A program made the translations under genes and the position numbers. A stretch of DNA of 21,227 nt from a virus: the IMG/VR virus record IMGVR_UViG_3300007734_000457, positions 1 to 21,227 of that record. The stretch is one strand, 5' to 3'. Positions within the stretch are counted from its first letter, which is position 1. Each line of letters opens with the position of its first letter. This document shows, one piece after another, positions 2,431 to 10,322 of this stretch. Under the pieces are notes generated by a model that saw only the letters and a list, made by a program, of their open reading frames with translations, made no database searches and was not told the origin of the DNA.

Positions 2431-2447
2431 CCAATTCTAGAAGTCAA
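2419..2447 (-). promoter_or_regulatory. Promoter of the WhiB/lysozyme unit (TTGACT-17-TATAAT)
   Basis: On the minus strand TTGACT (2447-2442), a 17-base spacer and a consensus TATAAT (2424-2419). The -35 lies in the last codons of the amidotransferase gene, so this unit can be transcribed independently of it. It is the closest match to the housekeeping sigma-70 consensus in the window. Genes from 2364 down to 181 lie downstream. Confidence 0.8.
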
Positions 2448-3312
2448 GTGGCTCTCTGCTGTACCACTTCTCACTTAAAAATCCATACTCATCTCTGAGC
2501 ATACTCTTAGTCTTAGGGTTGTAGCATAGGCACTCTAAGAACTGTGCGCTACAATCAAAGCAACACTCACACATAGTACAGTAGAGTTCACTTTCCCATA
2601 GGTCTACTAGAGCCTCACAATTAGGACACTCGAAGTTATTGTCCTCGAATAAAGATGGCTCAAAGTGGCTATCTGTTGCTACTATATCATACACACTAGG
2701 CTCATCACCATAGGTATATGTATAACTCTCGGTGCGTGGTGTAGATATGATAGGCTTGTAAGAATTATTACTCCACCATATACCGCTATCGTCCCAACTA
2801 CCTAAACTTTCATTGATAATATAAATCTTGTACTGTGCGCTAGGGTCATTGGTCATAACTACTACCTTGTTGCCACTAGCCCATGAACTAATCATATCAT
2901 ATACATAGTCATCATCAAGGGCAGACACGCCACCTAATCTTGGCAATAACTCCTCTGCCATAATCCTAGTGTCGCTACGCTTATCACCTTTAGGTATATG
3001 AATATCTAGCACACCATTGTGCGCTAAGTAAGTATCGTACTCACCTGCTACCTTAAATGGGTGGCAGTTAAGTTCGTTCTTAACTCCATGAGTAGCATAC
3101 CTAGCGTGCCACATAGCGTAGCCATTAGGGTATTGCTCACGCAACTCTAAGAACCTAGCGATAGACTTCTTAGCAGACATACTACGCTCAGATATAATAC
3201 CTGAACCAGTATCTATCGCAAACCCAAAGCCATGCGGGTTCTTACACGCACCCATCTTTAGGTCATCTTTACTCGGTGTGGAATTAGGATTACACACCAC
3301 TAATAAACACAT
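2437..3312 (-). CDS. Class II glutamine amidotransferase-like protein with C-terminal zinc ribbon, 291 aa
   Basis: Starts MCLLVVCNPN behind GAGAGGAGTTAGT, so Met removal would expose Cys2 as the nucleophile of an Ntn-type (GATase II) glutaminase. Supporting motifs are NPHGFGFAID at 25-34, MWHARYATHG at 67-76 and LAHNGVLD at 96-103, which match the Arg and the Asn-Gly oxyanion segments of GlmS/PurF-type domains; SDTRIMAEELLPRL follows. The domain would release ammonia from glutamine for a partner synthetase. A C-terminal module has C229PNC232, C245TMC248 and further Cys at 250, 251, 254, 261 and 263, probably one or more zinc ribbons. It lies 13 bp downstream of the amidoligase gene, and the two probably work together. 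It lacks any synthetase domain of its own. Confidence 0.82.
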   Translation of the reverse strand: MCLLVVCNPNSTPSKDDLKMGACKNPHGFGFAIDTGSGIISERSMSAKKSIARFLELREQYPNGYAMWHARYATHGVKNELNCHPFKVAGEYDTYLAHNGVLDIHIPKGDKRSDTRIMAEELLPRLGGVSALDDDYVYDMISSWASGNKVVVMTNDPSAQYKIYIINESLGSWDDSGIWWSNNSYKPIISTPRTESYTYTYGDEPSVYDIVATDSHFEPSLFEDNNFECPNCEALVDLWESELYCTMCECCFDCSAQFLECLCYNPKTKSMLRDEYGFLSEKWYSREPLDF

Positions 3313-3325
3313 ACTAACTCCTCTC

Positions 3326-4522
3326 TCATGCTTGGACTAACTCTTTACTATCTATTACTAACTTATCCACTCTACTCATACGCATATAGAGTTCAGGATA
3401 TAAACCATTGTTGGCTTGTATCCAGTCAGCGAACCACTCCCAACTTAACGCACCCATCTTTACATCTGATAGGGTTAGGTTGCGTGTGTATTCTACTGTT
3501 GCGTGTGCTAATTGTATAGCACTAAGCACACCATCAGGGTTCATAGTACCCCTAAAGAACCTGAGTTCTAAGGTGTGTAAGTTCTGCGTATTTACCGCAG
3601 AATATCTCTCGGTCATGGCGTTGTGTGGGTGAGCAACTTTATCGGCTAGTGTAAAGTATGGTCTATCAAACTCATCATACTTATACACATCATTGAACTT
3701 AGCATAGGTAGTTTTACGCCCACCTAATCTCATCATCTTATCAGAGTTCTTATAGATTAAGGATAAGAACCTATGAGTATGAGCACCTGACTTAAACCCT
3801 GCCCTGTTTATATGGACATGTAATCCGCAACTCTTAGCGTCCCAACTCCTAGCGATATGAACTCTCTTTAGATAATCTAAGGTAGTCCATAAGTTCTTAT
3901 TGTTGGTGAAGTAATCGAGAGTAGCAGGGTGAGATACCATCTCGAACCCTTTATAGCCACCACTACCTATACTACTATCATCTTTAAGATAGGTAAAGTC
4001 GCCCATCATCTCCATTACATACTCAGAACTTGCGGATAAATCTCCATCTCTAATCTCCATCTCTAGTTCTATGCCAAAGTATAATTTATTCTTATCATCA
4101 CCATAGAATACAGGGTTAGGCTTGTAAGAGTATTGGTTAATTAACCTACCGCTATCATCACAATTCTCGCAAGCCTCTCGGTTATACTCATCACAACTAT
4201 CGCACCAATGAGCATTATTAGAGCAACAGTCTTGACACCAATATTGGTCAATATCTGCTACTTGATAACTGCCATCATTATCAGAGTACAAGCACTCACA
4301 ACTCTCGCACCAGAAGGTATGGTTATCGGCACAAGGTTCGCACCAAGTACCGCAACCTTCTACATACCTAGAGTTATCTTCATAATCATAGTTATCGCAA
4401 CGCTCACAATAGATACGGCAACCAACGCACAGCGCATCACCGCCTAAAGTGGTGGCTAAATCATCTGGCGAGATACCGATAGCACAACTAGCGCACTCGA
4501 TTAACTCATCATCAATAGGCAT
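3326..4522 (-). CDS. Amidoligase-family enzyme with N-terminal zinc ribbon array, 398 aa
   Basis: Residues 1-121 contain about 18 Cys in repeated CxxC-type knuckles (C10/13, C32/35, C39/42, C61/64, C72/75, C96/99, C107/110, C118/121), a tandem zinc ribbon array. From residue 147 comes a domain with the marks of the phage amidoligase family, relatives of glutamine synthetase/COOH-NH2 ligases: FGIELEME (149-156), KDDSSIGSGG (180-189), FEMVSHP (193-199), CGLHVHINR (232-240), RYSAVN (306-311) and LELRFFRGT (318-326). In that fold the acidic and His/Arg residues bind ATP-Mg and the carboxylate, forming an amide or peptide bond. A strong AAGGAG site precedes the ATG. The adjacent GATase could supply ammonia. 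Substrate unknown; the zinc ribbons suggest a protein or nucleic-acid target. Confidence 0.82.
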   Translation of the reverse strand: MPIDDELIECASCAIGISPDDLATTLGGDALCVGCRIYCERCDNYDYEDNSRYVEGCGTWCEPCADNHTFWCESCECLYSDNDGSYQVADIDQYWCQDCCSNNAHWCDSCDEYNREACENCDDSGRLINQYSYKPNPVFYGDDKNKLYFGIELEMEIRDGDLSASSEYVMEMMGDFTYLKDDSSIGSGGYKGFEMVSHPATLDYFTNNKNLWTTLDYLKRVHIARSWDAKSCGLHVHINRAGFKSGAHTHRFLSLIYKNSDKMMRLGGRKTTYAKFNDVYKYDEFDRPYFTLADKVAHPHNAMTERYSAVNTQNLHTLELRFFRGTMNPDGVLSAIQLAHATVEYTRNLTLSDVKMGALSWEWFADWIQANNGLYPELYMRMSRVDKLVIDSKELVQA

Positions 4523-5185: not shown

Positions 5186-5206
5186 CCTAAGTATAGCATA
5201 CTTAGG
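5186..5206 (-). promoter_or_regulatory. 21-bp perfect palindrome over a -10 box (operator candidate)
   Basis: CCTAAGTAT and ATACTTAGG form a perfect 9-bp inverted repeat with a three-base centre (5195-5197). It covers the -10 box at 5190-5195. This is one of the most regular palindromes in the window and the best operator candidate of the left arm. Confidence 0.6.
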
Positions 5207-5218
5207 GCTATAAGTCAA
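5190..5218 (-). promoter_or_regulatory. Promoter of the two-gene small-protein unit (TTGACT-17-TATACT)
   Basis: Minus strand TTGACT (5218-5213), 17-base spacer and TATACT (5195-5190). Directly upstream lies a 14-base motif (5226-5239) that is repeated exactly upstream of another promoter at 6169-6182. A tRNA-like element (5231-5286) separates it from the previous gene. Confidence 0.75.
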
Positions 5219-5225
5219 GTTCTGA

Positions 5226-5239
5226 CTTATTGGCGTGTC
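5226..5239 (-). repeat. 14-bp direct repeat upstream of a promoter (copy 1)
   Basis: CTTATTGGCGTGTC (+ strand) recurs exactly at 6169-6182. In both places it sits 3-7 bases upstream of a TTGAC -35 box on the minus strand, so it may be a shared activator site. In this copy it also overlaps the 3' acceptor strand and tail of a tRNA-like element. Confidence 0.65.
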
Positions 5240-5286
5240 CTAGTAGGGTATCGAACCCTAAGCACTCCGAACCTATCGGCTAGGAC
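5231..5286 (-). ncRNA. tRNA-like element 1 (acceptor, D-like and T arms, no anticodon arm)
   Basis: Read on the minus strand: a perfect 7-bp acceptor-like stem (GTCCTAG 5286-5280 with CTAGGAC 5243-5237); a short hairpin CCGA-TAGGT-TCGG (5279-5267) whose loop has a GG pair, like a D loop; a six-base linker; and a textbook T arm, TAGGG-TTCGATA-CCCTA (5260-5244), abutting the acceptor stem as in a tRNA. The tail is ACGCCA. There is no anticodon arm, so it cannot decode. It starts nine bases after the stop of the 104-residue gene and ends just upstream of the next promoter. Possible roles: 3'-end formation by RNase P/RNase Z, or protection of the mRNA end. A degenerate tRNA is the alternative. 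Confidence 0.6.
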
Positions 5287-5295
5287 TATCTTAAA

Positions 5296-5610
5296 TTATA
5301 GATAACTCTCGGCAGGTTTAGCCAATAGTTTTGCCAATTCTGCCAAGCGTTCTTGCGCCTTGATGTTGCGTAGTTCTAGTTCTGTCAAGGGTTTAGGAGT
5401 AGCAGGGCTAGGCTTGGCGTTCTTAATTGTACGCCTTGCCAATTTAACCGCAGGGCTATCCTCGATAGCCACGATTATATTGCCCGCTTTATCACGCACC
5501 ACTAGATTACTAAACCTCTTAGAGCGTGAGCCTTGCCACGCCTTAGTGGTTCGCACCTCTCTTGGTGGTGTGATAATACTACCCATAACCCCATAAGGGT
5601 TATAGGACAC
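5296..5610 (-). CDS. Hypothetical basic protein, 104 aa, GTG start
   Basis: GTG at 5610-5608 (MSYNPYGVMG) with GAGAGG eight bases upstream. The N-terminal half is basic (REVRTTKAWQGSRSKRFSN) with a short strand pair NLVVRDKAGNIIVAIED; the C-terminal half is Pro/Ala/Lys-rich and then a long helix LTELELRNIKAQERLAELAK. It may bind nucleic acid, but no family is recognised. It has an unusually structured leader of about 140 bases and is followed after nine bases by a tRNA-like element, so its message is bounded by structured RNA at both ends. Confidence 0.65.
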   Translation of the reverse strand: MSYNPYGVMGSIITPPREVRTTKAWQGSRSKRFSNLVVRDKAGNIIVAIEDSPAVKLARRTIKNAKPSPATPKPLTELELRNIKAQERLAELAKLLAKPAESYL

Positions 5611-5630
5611 TATCTTACCTCTCTACTAGG

Positions 5631-5732
5631 GGCTTGATTAGATAGTGAGTAGTCCATCAAGTATCCCGCCAGCGCACCCGCCAGCATAACAAGGGGCGTA
5701 TCCCGTTGGACTACTTACTACCTAATCAAACC
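5631..5732 (-). ncRNA. Structured 5' leader with a 26-bp imperfect stem
   Basis: Arms 5631-5656 and 5707-5732 pair over 26 positions with three non-Watson-Crick positions; two of these become G-U pairs in the minus-strand RNA. The 50-base interior contains direct repeats: CTGGCGGG twice and CGGGATAC twice (minus strand), plus a possible inner stem CGCCCC/GGGTGCG with one bulged base. The element lies between a promoter (5756-5784) and the GTG of the 104-residue gene, so it should form the leader of that message. It could be a cis-regulatory RNA (attenuator or riboswitch-like), or a small RNA. No known riboswitch class recognised. Confidence 0.55.
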
Positions 5733-5755
5733 TTCTTTATTTATTTATTAAGCGT

Positions 5756-5784
5756 ATCTTACCACACCTTCTTAGTGGTGTCAA
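5756..5784 (-). promoter_or_regulatory. Promoter of the 104-residue gene (TTGACA-17-TAAGAT)
   Basis: Minus strand consensus -35 TTGACA (5784-5779), 17-base spacer, TAAGAT (5761-5756). Inverted repeats overlap it: GTGTC/GACAC around the -35 (5778-5793) and ACACC/GGTGT within the spacer (5764-5781), either of which could be an operator. Transcription would start near 5749, just before the structured leader. Confidence 0.75.
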
Positions 5785-5800
5785 GTCCGACACGCTGACC

Positions 5801-5815
5801 AGATTATCTTAATCT
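5801..5815 (-). other. Small hairpin between tRNA-like element 2 and a promoter
   Basis: AGATTA and TAATCT form a perfect 6-bp stem around three bases. It directly follows tRNA-like element 2 in the direction of leftward transcription. It lacks a T tract, so a terminator role is only possible, not shown. Confidence 0.35.
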
Positions 5816-5822
5816 AGTCTAG

Positions 5823-5870
5823 TGCCTAGTGGGGAGTTGAACCCCATCTCCCGCCTTATCGGGCTAGGCT
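5823..5870 (-). ncRNA. tRNA-like element 2 (acceptor, D-like and T arms, no anticodon arm)
   Basis: Read on the minus strand: GCCTAG (5869-5864) pairs with CTAGGC (5829-5824), a 6-bp acceptor-like stem; a hairpin CCCG-ATAAGG-CGGG (5863-5850) again has GG in its loop; a three-base linker AGA; and a T arm TGGGG-TTCAACT-CCCCA (5846-5830) directly abutting the acceptor strand. An outer GTC/GAC pairing may extend the helix. Its plan matches element 1 although the stem sequences differ, which is covariation-like support for the fold. It begins seven bases after the stop of the 72-residue gene and lies upstream of the next promoter. No anticodon arm is present. Confidence 0.6.
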
Positions 5871-5876
5871 GACCTT

Positions 5877-6095
5877 CTAAGCCTTGCTTAGTCTGTCCTC
5901 AATCAGAAGGGCGCAAGTGTCGTATGAGTTCGCACCCTCACCATCTGAACCTTCTAACCATACTATTCGACCTCGAACCCTAATCGTAGAACCTTCTCCA
6001 TGAAGGCTCATCAATAAGGCGAAGCCGTAGTCGTCTGGATTACATTTCGCAATCAAGCGACCTTCTGGTGTATAGGCGTCATAAGTGTATTTCAT
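5877..6095 (-). CDS. Hypothetical protein, 72 aa
   Basis: ATG at 6095-6093 with GGTGAT upstream; TAG at 5879-5877. The product (MKYTYDAYTPEGRLIAKCNP...) looks like a small beta-rich domain: an N-terminal hairpin, then STIRVRGRIVWLEGSDGEG and TCALLIEDRLSKA. No family recognised. It is the last leftward gene, nearest the divergent region with the SOS boxes, and has its own promoter, so it may be an early or immediate-response product. Confidence 0.6.
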   Translation of the reverse strand: MKYTYDAYTPEGRLIAKCNPDDYGFALLMSLHGEGSTIRVRGRIVWLEGSDGEGANSYDTCALLIEDRLSKA

Positions 6096-6137: not shown

Positions 6138-6165
6138 ACTCTACCACGCTGAAAAACCTTGTCAA
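6138..6165 (-). promoter_or_regulatory. Promoter of the 72-residue gene (TTGACA-16-TAGAGT)
   Basis: Minus strand TTGACA (6165-6160), 16-base spacer, TAGAGT (6143-6138, four of six consensus bases). The 14-bp repeat (6169-6182) lies just upstream, and SOS box 1 is about 38 bp upstream of the -35. The weak -10 suggests it may need an activator. Confidence 0.55.
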
Positions 6166-6168
6166 GTC

Positions 6169-6182
6169 CTTATTGGCGTGTC
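6169..6182 (-). repeat. 14-bp direct repeat upstream of a promoter (copy 2)
   Basis: Exact second copy of CTTATTGGCGTGTC (first at 5226-5239). Here it overlaps a small hairpin, TGGCG-TGT-CGCCA (6174-6186). It lies three bases upstream of a TTGACA box on the minus strand. Confidence 0.65.
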
Positions 6183-6202
6183 GCCATGTTAGATACATCA
6201 CA

Positions 6203-6216
6203 CGAACATCTGTTCG
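6203..6216. promoter_or_regulatory. SOS (LexA) box 1
   Basis: CGAACATCTGTTCG is a perfect palindrome of the form CGAAC-N4-GTTCG, the core of Gram-positive and actinobacterial LexA boxes. The flanks are A and A, so the outer position of the actinobacterial TCGAAC-N4-GTTCGA consensus is met on one side. Centre-to-centre distance to box 2 is 47 bp. Confidence 0.7.
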
Positions 6217-6248: not shown

Positions 6249-6264
6249 TCGAACATGCGTTCGA
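6249..6264. promoter_or_regulatory. SOS (LexA) box 2
   Basis: TCGAACATGCGTTCGA matches the full actinobacterial consensus TCGAAC-N4-GTTCGA. The DNA around boxes 1 and 2 is a near-exact 18-bp direct repeat differing only at two central bases. A -10-like TATACT follows at 6280-6285 on the + strand, though without a good -35. Binding by host LexA, or by a phage LexA-like repressor, would link phage transcription to DNA damage. Confidence 0.75.
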
Positions 6265-6670: not shown

Positions 6671-8527
6671 ATGGCAAAGCAGAACCTTACTAAGGAGGAG
6701 GCCCAACAGAGGGTACTCATCCAACTTAAACAGGGACAAACCATCAAGATGGCGATGGAATCCGTTGGCCGTTCTGAGGCCGCTTTCCGCCAGTGGACCC
6801 TTACCGAGCCAAGTTTCAAGGCAGAGGCTGACAAGGCCAGGCTAGAAGCCAAGGGTGTTAAAACAGATTTAGCAGAACTTAAAGATATATCCTTTGAGGA
6901 TTTCTCTCAAGAGTTCTTAGATACAAGACTCTTCCCCCACCACCTTGACTGGGTGGATTTGGTTGAGGGTAAAGAGCCTAGGTGGTTACATCCATCTATG
7001 ACCTACGAGGTAGGTGCTAGCAATCGTGTACTTATCAACGTACCACCTGAGCACGCCAAGTCAACTGTAATTACAATTAACTACGTTACCTATCGTCTAG
7101 CGGTAGACCCTAACGTTCGAATCATCATAGTTTCAAAAACCCAGGGTATGGCACGAAAGTTTCTTTCAGCCATCAAGACCCGCCTAAGTCATCCTAACTG
7201 GACTAAACTACAAGTGGCCTTCGGCCCACAGGGTGGATACAAAGCAGACTCCAACACTTGGTCTGCCGATATGATTTACTTAGGTACTGGTAGAGACTCT
7301 GGCGAGAAGGACCCTACTGTACAAGCATTGGGATTCGGGTCACAGATTTACGGTGCAAGAGCCGACCTGATTATCCTTGACGATGTGGTGATGAATGCAA
7401 ACGCCCATGAGTGGGAGAAGCAAATTGAATGGCTTCAAAAAGAAGTCATCACCCGTTTGGGTCGACACGGAAAACTACTTATTGTAGGAACCCGTGTCGC
7501 ACCTATTGACCTTTATAAGATGATGAGAGACCCTGGTCAGTGGACTGGTGGTAAATCTCCATTCACCTACTTTAGCCAACCAGCAGTCTTAGAGTTTGAT
7601 GAGAAACCCGCCAACTGGAAAACCTTGTGGCCAAAGACTGATAGGCCTGAGGGTGAACAAGATGAGGCGGACAAAGATGGATTATATACAAAGTGGGATG
7701 GACCCTCGCTATTTACTAGAAGGTCTGAAGTCGCTCCGTCAGTATGGGCGCTTGTCTACCAACAAGAAGATGTTATGGAAGACTCCATCTTCGCACCTAC
7801 CGCAGTCGCAGGATGCGTCAATGGTATGCGAAAGAGGGGACCACTCAAGGCTGGAGTACCTGGCCATCCAAAACACATTGATGGCTCTTATACCGTTATC
7901 GGCCTCGACCCCGCTATGGCAGGAGCAACAGGAGCAGTAGTAATAACCTACAATCGTTCTGATGGCAAAATCTATGTATTAGATTGCGTCAATATGACCG
8001 ATACAACTCCACAAAGAATTAGAGACCTTATCGAAGAATGGGTTATCAAATACAAACCCCAAGAGATAAGAATTGAAATTAACGCCCACCAGAAGGCTTA
8101 CGCCTTAGATGATGATTTACGCAACTGGTTGGCACAATATGGCTGTACCCTAAACTCTCACTTCACAGGTAAGAACAAATGGGATACTGGCTTTGGTGTA
8201 GCATCTATGGCTACCCTATTCGGGACGATAAGAGATTCTCGTTTCCAGGATAATAACCTAATTGAACTTCCTTCTAATGAAGGCTCTGAGGGCTTGAAGT
8301 CCTTAGTACAGCAATTGATTACCTGGAAACCTGATACCAAAAACCCAACAGACTGTGTTATGGCATTATGGTTTGCCGTTATCAAAGTTCGTGAACTTAT
8401 GCAGAAATCATCATACGCTACTAAGTTTGCTAATAACCGTTGGGCAACTAGAGCACAAAAAGATAAACGGTACGGAATTAACTTAGACGATGCCTTTGCA
8501 GAGCAATGGGCTGAAACATACAGTTAG
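6671..8527 (+). CDS. terL: Terminase large subunit, 618 aa
   Basis: ATP-driven DNA packaging motor with headful or cos nuclease. The ATPase half shows a degenerate Walker A (VPPEHAKST, 124-132), Walker B LIILDD (233-238) and the coupling motif VGTR (272-275). The C-terminal RNase H-like nuclease has GLDPAMAGATGAV with D413, IRIEINAHQ with E469, and NPTDCVMALWFA with D561, the expected acidic triad. The first 60 residues contain a helix-turn-helix-like stretch (QGQTIKMAMESVGRSEAAFR, then QW) that is reminiscent of small-terminase DNA-binding domains; no separate small subunit gene is seen in the window. AGGGG seven bases before the ATG supports the start. It is the first gene of the rightward virion cluster. 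Confidence 0.95.
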   Translation: MAKQNLTKEEAQQRVLIQLKQGQTIKMAMESVGRSEAAFRQWTLTEPSFKAEADKARLEAKGVKTDLAELKDISFEDFSQEFLDTRLFPHHLDWVDLVEGKEPRWLHPSMTYEVGASNRVLINVPPEHAKSTVITINYVTYRLAVDPNVRIIIVSKTQGMARKFLSAIKTRLSHPNWTKLQVAFGPQGGYKADSNTWSADMIYLGTGRDSGEKDPTVQALGFGSQIYGARADLIILDDVVMNANAHEWEKQIEWLQKEVITRLGRHGKLLIVGTRVAPIDLYKMMRDPGQWTGGKSPFTYFSQPAVLEFDEKPANWKTLWPKTDRPEGEQDEADKDGLYTKWDGPSLFTRRSEVAPSVWALVYQQEDVMEDSIFAPTAVAGCVNGMRKRGPLKAGVPGHPKHIDGSYTVIGLDPAMAGATGAVVITYNRSDGKIYVLDCVNMTDTTPQRIRDLIEEWVIKYKPQEIRIEINAHQKAYALDDDLRNWLAQYGCTLNSHFTGKNKWDTGFGVASMATLFGTIRDSRFQDNNLIELPSNEGSEGLKSLVQQLITWKPDTKNPTDCVMALWFAVIKVRELMQKSSYATKFANNRWATRAQKDKRYGINLDDAFAEQWAETYS

Positions 8528-8534
8528 GATATAA

Positions 8535-10322
8535 ATGGCTTTATCAATAGACCAGATTGCATCACGAGTTGAATCACTCAAGTATCGTGCATCAGAGCGT
8601 GATGCCCGTGCAGGTGATGTACTTGCTGTGCGCCAAGGTAAAATCTCAGAAGTCTATCCTGACTTTTTTCCAGAGGGTGTAGATACAAATGTCGTTGCGA
8701 ATTTTATTGACATTGTTGCTAGGGACTTATCGGAGGTTATGGCACCTCTTCCAGCGGTTAACTGTTCATCCGCTAGCCAGGTTAATGACCGTGCTCGTAA
8801 GTTTGCTGATAATCGTACTCGCATTGCTTCTAATTATTTTAATCATTCCGATTTACAAGTTTCTATGTACACGGGGGCGGACCACTATATAACATACGGA
8901 TTCCTGCCATTCGTAATTGAATTGGACCAGGAAGCAAAACTGCCTCGCATCCGCCTGGAAAACCCAAGGATGGCTTATCCTGAATTTGACCGCTATGGAC
9001 GATGCATTGCATTTGCAAAGAGATATACATTAACACTAGGTGAACTAGTAGCACAATTCCCAGAGTACGAAGGTCAACTACTTGGCCCATCTGGATTCAA
9101 GCAAGATGTAAATAACTTGATTGAAATTATCCGCTACTACGATAAAGACCAATCTGTTGTATATATACCATCAAGACAAAATTTAGTTTTATCACAAGCA
9201 CGTAATCCGCTAGGCAAGATGATGGTTATTGTTGCTAAGCGTCCATCTGTAGATGGTGAGATGCGTGGACAGTTTGATGATGTATTAGGTATTCAGTTAC
9301 TTCGTAACCGTTTTGCTATGCTTGCTATGGAGGCTGCAGAGAAATCTGTACAAGCCCCAATCGTACTTCCACAAGATGTACAAGAGTTGCAACTTGGTGG
9401 CGATGCTGTTATCCGTACTTCTAATCCAGCGGGTGTACGTCGTGTAGAACTTACTCTACCACAAGGTGCATTTACTGAACAACAATTATTAAATCAAGAA
9501 CTTAGAGTTGGTGCTCGTTATCCAGAAGGACGTACTGGTAACATCGATGCATCTATTGTTACAGGTCAAGGTGTACAGGCTCTTATGGGAGCCTTTGATA
9601 CACAGGTTAAATCAGCACAGGCAATCTTTGCTACAGCACTTCGTGATGTTATTAGCCTATGCTTTGAAGTTGACCAGATGTTCTTTGACGAAACAAAAAC
9701 AATTCGTGGCGTAGATGCTGGTTCACCTTACGCACTAGAGTACAAGCCAAGTAAAGACATTAAGAATGATTTCTCTGCCGATGTTCGTTACGGTATGCTT
9801 GCTGGTCTTAATCCAGCACAGGGACTTATCTTTATGTTGCAAGCACTTGGTGGTAAATTAATCTCTAAAGATATGGCTATGAGGGAGTTACCATTTAATG
9901 TCAATGTTACGCAAGAGCAAGAGAAGATTGAGATTGAAGATATGCGTAATGCTCTTATTGGTTCACTTCAAGCATACACCCAAGCCATTCCACAAATGGC
10001 CGCTAGTGGACAGAATCCTTCTGACATTGTTAGAAAAATTGCTGAGGTTATTAAATCAAGACAAAAGGGACAAGCAATAGAGGATGCAATTGAAGAGATA
10101 TTTGCGCCTGAAGCGCAACAAGTTCCTCCTGCTGGCGCACCTTCTCAGGTTGAGCAAACGTCCCCTGCTCCCGCTGCTGCTCCAGTAGGAGGTCCTACAC
10201 CAGAGCAGGGTGCAGCAGAACTACCACCACAAGAGCAAGCACCAGATATTCAAAGTCTTTTATCAAGTCTAACATCAGGTGGGGAAGCAAACGCAAGCGT
10301 AAGAACTATTCGACGACGATAA
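8535..10322 (+). CDS. Portal protein, 595 aa
   Basis: Starts seven bases after the terminase stop, with AGGA upstream. The length and the place directly after the large terminase fit a portal protein, the dodecameric ring at the capsid vertex through which DNA is packaged and to which the tail attaches. Consistent segments are YPDFFPEGVDTNVVANFIDI near residue 41, FVIELDQEAKLPRIRLENPR, VARY-type helices in the middle and a long helical stem region (QLLNQELRVGARYPEGRTGN; TGQGVQALMGAFDTQVKSAQ). Residues from about 520 on are Pro/Ala/Gln-rich and probably disordered (QVPPAGAPSQVEQTSPAPAA). There is no single catalytic motif, so identification rests on context and overall pattern. Confidence 0.85.
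   Translation: MALSIDQIASRVESLKYRASERDARAGDVLAVRQGKISEVYPDFFPEGVDTNVVANFIDIVARDLSEVMAPLPAVNCSSASQVNDRARKFADNRTRIASNYFNHSDLQVSMYTGADHYITYGFLPFVIELDQEAKLPRIRLENPRMAYPEFDRYGRCIAFAKRYTLTLGELVAQFPEYEGQLLGPSGFKQDVNNLIEIIRYYDKDQSVVYIPSRQNLVLSQARNPLGKMMVIVAKRPSVDGEMRGQFDDVLGIQLLRNRFAMLAMEAAEKSVQAPIVLPQDVQELQLGGDAVIRTSNPAGVRRVELTLPQGAFTEQQLLNQELRVGARYPEGRTGNIDASIVTGQGVQALMGAFDTQVKSAQAIFATALRDVISLCFEVDQMFFDETKTIRGVDAGSPYALEYKPSKDIKNDFSADVRYGMLAGLNPAQGLIFMLQALGGKLISKDMAMRELPFNVNVTQEQEKIEIEDMRNALIGSLQAYTQAIPQMAASGQNPSDIVRKIAEVIKSRQKGQAIEDAIEEIFAPEAQQVPPAGAPSQVEQTSPAPAAAPVGGPTPEQGAAELPPQEQAPDIQSLLSSLTSGGEANASVRTIRRR

Follow-up and report, generated by a model that had tools for sequence, protein, structure and literature searches.

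Anticodon-less tRNA-like RNAs after stop codons in phages of probable freshwater actinobacteria: an RNA family without an Rfam entry and with a possible role in forming mRNA ends

Introduction

The tRNA-like domain of tmRNA has an acceptor stem, a T arm and a D-like loop and lacks an anticodon arm; tmRNA itself is an alanine acceptor with a long insert that encodes a tag. Structured intercistronic elements are familiar from the phage T7 operon as well, where the early mRNA contains RNase III sites.

In plant mitochondria, so-called t-elements give rise to mRNA ends through the action of RNase P and RNase Z, and the tRNA-like products receive CCA but do not become charged (PMC11658184). With mascRNA and menRNA, a cut by RNase P makes the 3' end of the upstream RNA (PMC11693755). 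Phages also supply substrates of bacterial RNase P, namely M3 RNA and the C4 antisense RNA of P1/P7, and the RNA of the bacterial enzyme can cut a hairpin that combines an acceptor stem with a T arm (PMC11143913). RNase P and RNase Z each gauge distance along the stacked acceptor and T stems, starting at the elbow (PMC4919913; PMC11693755). In actinophages, repeated intergenic elements have been described as the ESAS of cluster K mycobacteriophages, which are sequence-conserved 17-bp inverted repeats tied to the next start codon (PMC3203893).

Here, we analyse a 21.2-kb virus record (the window, meaning the whole stretch of DNA studied), in which two tRNA-like elements had been noticed at the ends of leftward genes. 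The window encodes TerL at 6671-8527 (phrog_38), has the portal and other rightward genes in its right part, and carries a leftward gene set that includes a WhiB-like gene. Because of this WhiB-like gene and the actinophage relatives of TerL, the host is probably a freshwater actinobacterium; scans of bacterial genomes with TerL and with the element pattern gave no match.

Results

The two elements of the window are both on the minus strand, as are all features described in this section, palindromes apart, unless otherwise stated, and thermodynamic folding returns the proposed fold as MFE and centroid for each of them (z -2.45 for TLS1, -2.90 for TLS2). TLS1 (5237-5286) has the sequence GTCCTAG-CCGA[TAGGT]TCGG-AGTGCT-TAGGG(TTCGATA)CCCTA-CTAGGAC, comprising an acceptor-like stem of 7 bp (P1), a D-like hairpin with a TAGGT loop (P2, CCGA[TAGGT]TCGG, 5267-5279), a 6-nt linker and a T-like arm with a TTCGATA loop (P3, TAGGG(TTCGATA)CCCTA, 5244-5260), the loop being closed by one further T-A pair in the predicted fold. 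TLS2 (5824-5869) has the sequence GCCTAG-CCCG[ATAAGG]CGGG-AGA-TGGGG(TTCAACT)CCCCA-CTAGGC and consists of a 6-bp P1, a D-like hairpin with an ATAAGG loop, a 3-nt linker and a T-like arm with a TTCAACT loop. The acceptor and T stems together measure 12 in TLS1 and 11 in TLS2. Both elements thus present what the original prediction had described, a tRNA elbow without an anticodon arm, in that a D-loop GG accompanies a canonical T-like loop of the form TTCRA. Two details of that description needed amending: the start of the first element had been placed at 5231, which takes in an ACGCCA tail, and the D-like hairpin abuts the acceptor-like stem with no linker or with one base.

TLS1 begins 9 nt after the stop codon of the gene for a 104-aa protein (5296-5610) and TLS2 begins 7 nt after that of the gene for a 72-aa protein (5877-6095), in agreement with the spacing of 7-9 bases first reported. 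A second hairpin (P4) follows each element, with the form ATAAGTCAG(AAC)TTGACTTAT at 5210-5230, where it overlaps the next -35 box, and GACTAGATTA(AGA)TAATCTGGTC at 5797-5819. None of 50 shuffles was as good as P4 in either case, and folding with P4 included lowers the z scores to -3.7 (TLS1) and -3.8 (TLS2). Leftward promoters lie just downstream of TLS1 (TTGACT-17-TATACT, 5190-5218) and downstream of TLS2 (TTGACA-17-TAAGAT, 5756-5784), while the promoter of the 72-aa gene (TTGACA-16-TAGAGT, 6138-6165) is likely the start of the TLS2-bearing transcript. An intrinsic terminator was considered and rejected at both elements, neither of which has a U run or a terminator-like site. ARAGORN found no tRNA gene in the window, the D-like and T-like arms being only 3-6 nt apart, and Rfam gave no match at the gathering threshold in the window and eight relatives (at E<=10, sub-threshold matches only).

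Searches of IMG/VR with TerL, along with pattern scans, yielded several hundred loci; blastn with the region against isolate phages gave no match. Homologues of TLS1 carry compensatory changes in all three helices, with P1 occurring as GTCCTAG/CTAGGAC, GTCGTAG/CTACGAC and GTCCTGC/GCAGGAC, P2 as CCGA/TCGG and CCCG/CGGG, and the T stem as TAGGG/CCCTA and TGGGG/CCCCA. A third kind of element, GTGTCG-CCCC[TAGTA]GGGG-GTAAT-CTTAG(TTCACAA)CTAAG-CGACAC, has a T stem that reads CTTAG, CCTAG or CTGAG, with partners to match. MAFFT misplaces the P2 and P1 registers when classes are mixed, so that RNAalifold then recovers P2 and P3 only; the covariance model (R1) was built from copies of TLS1 of class 1 alone, the class with tRNA-like loops. 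This model recovers TLS2 at E = 3e-4 and a related locus (L003) at 5e-7, and it finds one copy apiece in eleven whole records.

In the relatives, the leftward strand around TerL (0.44 Mb) gave 48 distinct matches to a descriptor of the plan, against 5 matches in 3.2 Mb of control strands, one of these being a genuine tRNA-Trp. Percent pairing within descriptor matches is circular and was set aside as evidence; the non-circular support consists of this strand contrast and of a set of sequences picked solely as lying downstream of homologues of the 104-aa protein. A tRNA-like element is found, by reading, in about 31 of the 43 distinct sequences of that set (two of them cut by contig ends). A long hairpin stands in its place in four (L004, L007, L011 and L014), joined, where read further, by a second hairpin, and the other eight run straight into another gene. 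Further tRNA-like variants occur in L060 and L143. Thus, the elements are a real phage RNA family without an Rfam entry (gathering cut-off), and not a tRNA; the two copies of the original prediction are genuine, and the family holds many more.

With ORFs of >=30 codons, the element starts within 20 nt after a stop codon in 47 of the 48 forms (7% at random), at a distance of 6-16 nt. The proposed check, a search for more post-stop copies with compensatory changes, was therefore borne out. Elements are roughly 45-51 nt long and occur as serial copies within a genome, after the stops of different genes. A sigma70-like promoter <=110 nt downstream accompanies 20 of the 48 forms, mainly in the window's own clade, and most relatives have no promoter after the element, just the next gene some 30-50 nt on; hence the leftward promoter originally expected to follow is there at both window elements and is not a general trait of the family. 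It could be asked whether an element so close to a stop codon stimulates readthrough or frameshifting, the spacing of 6-11 nt being like that of viral readthrough structures. We consider this extremely improbable, as the frame past the stop closes within 0-15 codons in many members and the identity of the stop varies (TAG 24, TAA 19, TGA 10).

One relative, L060, has a tRNA-Trp(CCA)-like RNA in the same slot (8513-8581, ARAGORN), with a 3-nt D loop and an anticodon-like arm bearing a CTCCAAA loop, and the hairpin that follows it, GCGGAAATACCGC, is the same as that after the element of L046. Together with the tRNA-like loops of class 1, this RNA is what would be expected if the family had arisen by decay of a phage tRNA-Trp gene, its members being remnants from which the anticodon arm has gone. 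The original prediction had named relatives with an anticodon arm as evidence against itself, and L060 is the sole such form among about 68-70 distinct ones. Decay is, however, very unlikely given about 68 distinct stop-proximal forms in which pairing is kept up through compensatory changes, the recurrent placement after stops of different genes and the serial copies per genome, from which we conclude that the elements are maintained. A remote origin from a tRNA is possible.

A second phage group (L325/L326), of about 56% GC and with a DnaN-like gene identified by reading of the sequence, has four or five copies, all with GG and TTCGAYT. In one example, GCGCGGG-GGCA[GACGG]TGCC-CTTG-TCCGG(TTCGATT)CCGGA-CCCGCGC follows the stop of the DnaN-like gene by six nt. 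Since a few of its proteins are distant matches to those of the window's relatives, we do not claim that this group is independent. An element of the same plan, AGCTAG-GTA[TGG]TAC-TTATA-TGAGG(TTCGACC)CCTCA-CTAGCT, was also observed at 5972-6016 of L082, a 67-kb contig that also bears a tRNA-Arg.

How far does the likeness to tRNA extend? An early form of the descriptor required TTC in the loop, and conservation of C56 would then be circular, so loop and ruler statistics were taken from rescans without a loop constraint, the ruler scan being anchored on stop codons only, with loop sequence and distance left free. Among its 62 structures, the distance from the centre of the P3 loop to the 3' end of P1 is 15.5 nt (= 12) in 40 and 14.5 nt (= 11) in 9. 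This ruler is held despite a shifting partition between P3 and P1 (5+7, 4+1+7, 3+1+8 and 5+6), P1 ranging from 6 to 8 bp and P3 from three to five outer pairs, in some cases with a single unpaired A. The ends are similarly constrained in 53 family members, where the flanks follow A(C/T)A|G...C|AC(G/T): position -1 is A in 44, C in 8, G in 1 and U in none; +1 is G in 52; the last P1 base (72) is C in 50; 73 is A in 50; and 75 is G in 38, U in 11, A in 4 and never C. Position 74 is C in 53/53, a count inflated by some members having been picked with C74 as a filter; the counts at +1, 73 and 75 are free of this effect, save that the selection allowed only A or G at 73.

In the loop corresponding to the T loop, T54 is found in 39/47, U or G at 55 in 47/47, C56 in 46/47, R57 in 47/47 and A58 in 33/47. 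Across 58 distinct loop pairs, the P2 loop contains GG alongside 11 of 12 canonical TTCRA-H loops and 4 of 46 others (Fisher 7e-8, relatedness ignored). Such linkage would be expected of a G18G19-T-loop elbow in the elbow class, of which the window elements are members. Some three quarters of the distinct loop combinations are without an elbow of GG and canonical T loop (class 2). The family is tRNA-like, then, in defined and tested respects.

The serial copies in one operon, the conserved flanks and the elbow-less class 2 would also suit a site bound by some regulator of the leftward operon, of phage or host origin and acting through translation or antitermination, with a shape that only resembles tRNA. 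We judge this unlikely, because the same rules of distance and loop sequence apply as in tRNA and a place after stop codons is unusual for nut-like sites.

In most members, the second hairpin starts 2-5 nt past P1 (shuffle p<=0.1 in 70%), and its stems vary (GGCGGA/TCCGCC, AGTGTCTGA/TCAGACACT, GAAGGGGCA/TGCCCCTTC and others). In most relatives it is followed by a Shine-Dalgarno sequence and the next start codon, whereas within the window's clade it overlaps with the -35 box that comes next. The leftward gaps of FlowerPower (L320) and Immanuel3 (L321), isolate Streptomyces phages with a TerL about 47% identical, contain no such tRNA-like element. We observed there the order stop, long hairpin with an internal mismatch, second hairpin and GGGGAGAG Shine-Dalgarno sequence. 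In light of these plain hairpins, the slot may serve some general purpose between cistrons, one taken on by the tRNA-like form among relatives of the window. FlowerPower and Immanuel3 also offer a culturable system for the study of intercistronic processing.

Several other features of the window deserve mention in their own right. The structured 5' leader RNA of the 104-aa gene (5615-5733) has a long closing helix of variable sequence and at least two Watson-Crick types at 14 of 16 consensus pairs in 30 relatives; its only match in Rfam is a sub-threshold one to STnc400, and it is possibly a second unregistered RNA. A CGTGTCG/CGACACG motif, possibly an operator, lies just upstream of leftward -35 boxes here (e.g. 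5788-5794, and 6177-6183 on the plus strand) and in relatives, with five occurrences in the window against 0.4 expected, and almost every class-1 leader of the 104-aa gene contains it. The palindromes CGAACATCTGTTCG and CGAACATGCGTTCG at 6203-6216 and 6250-6263 are like actinobacterial LexA/SOS boxes (3 matches with at most one mismatch, 0.15 expected). Neighbouring genes at 2437-4522 match an amidoligase (phrog_2443) and a glutamine amidotransferase-like family (phrog_4736).

Discussion

What might these elements do? From their sequence and placement, we propose, with a probability of roughly one half, that they serve intercistronic processing or 3'-end formation by tRNA-end enzymes. Host enzymes of this kind, measuring from the elbow, would recognise the element in the leftward transcript, with RNase P acting at A-1|G+1, RNase Z and CCA addition after A73, or both. 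Cleavage would separate neighbouring cistrons. The upstream mRNA would then end shortly after its stop codon or be protected by a tRNA-like cap at its 3' end, and the second hairpin would be left as the 5' end of the next message. The elements would then act much like tRNA punctuation or plant-mitochondrial t-elements, serially and with anticodon-less mimics.

The principal alternative is that the element is a stable 3' structure between cistrons, acting as a block to 3'-5' exonucleases or marking the point to which a Rho-terminated transcript is trimmed, with no part for tRNA enzymes; the three-way junction would be one of several stable folds in the slot. We take this to be a serious possibility, if not a probable one. 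It is consistent with the long hairpins in the slot of L007 and L011 and in similar gaps of Streptomyces phages, each with a second hairpin after it, with second hairpins being common, and with the many members that lack an elbow. A mere roadblock does not, however, predict a 12-nt ruler with a shifting stem partition, nor the invariant C74 and excluded C75, the near-invariant C56-R57 and the linkage of GG to the T loop.

Processing by tRNA-end enzymes has difficulties of its own. The RCC motif is of importance to RNase P RNA (PMC12710915), and the absence of C75 (0/53) and of U-1 (0/53), along with the many elbow-less members, makes for a poor fit to an optimised RNase P substrate. The long hairpins in the same kind of slot (L007/L011 and the Streptomyces Beephvirinae) indicate that a tRNA-like shape is dispensable, and in the window's clade the next gene could be expressed without processing, since a promoter follows the element. 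The mimicry of tRNA originally suggested is thus supported in part, by the elbow architecture, the placement, the compensatory changes and the many copies in relatives, and weakened by the elbow-less majority, the missing C75 and U-1 and the plain hairpins of relatives.

More broadly, and more tentatively than for the elements themselves, phages whose hosts are probably freshwater actinobacteria may use series of anticodon-less tRNA mimics as punctuation in their leftward operons, for processing by host RNase P, perhaps with RNase Z and the CCA-adding enzyme. By analogy, and with a like degree of caution, such a system could be the equivalent, in bacterial viruses, of mitochondrial tRNA punctuation, with an elbow that is kept or lost and a slot that can be switched to plain hairpins. 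If true, this would be, as far as we have found, the first serial anticodon-less tRNA mimicry to shape phage mRNA ends. It would also provide a natural experiment on what tRNA-end enzymes need, with dozens of variants that differ in sequence, stem partition and even elbow while the 12-nt ruler stays. As an RNA family absent from Rfam, the elements are useful for annotating actinophage operons.

Among known systems, tmRNA differs from the elements in that only a few nt separate the D and T arms here and CCA is not encoded. The RNase III sites of T7, like the gap hairpins of the Beephvirinae, are simple long hairpins, in contrast to a tRNA-like three-way junction. The ESAS are, like the present elements, repeated in actinophages, whereas our elements vary in sequence and are anchored on the previous stop codon. 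M3 RNA and C4 antisense RNA occur singly, as small or antisense RNAs, and are not serial post-stop elements. The mascRNA and menRNA of MALAT1 and MEN-beta have in common with our family a reduced D arm, two G contacting the T loop, the lack of linker residues, and the acceptor and T arm; TLS2 scores 17.3 bits against mascRNA-menRNA (RF01684), below the cut-off of 42.5. An anticodon-like arm is retained in mascRNA, which comes from mammalian lncRNA loci, and we do not claim homology. Finally, the t-elements and mitochondrial tRNA punctuation resemble the phage elements, for which cleavage is predicted, in placing tRNA-like structures at gene ends. Unlike them, t-elements are homologous to whole tRNAs, whereas the elements described here have no anticodon arm, reside in phages and are repeated after several genes.
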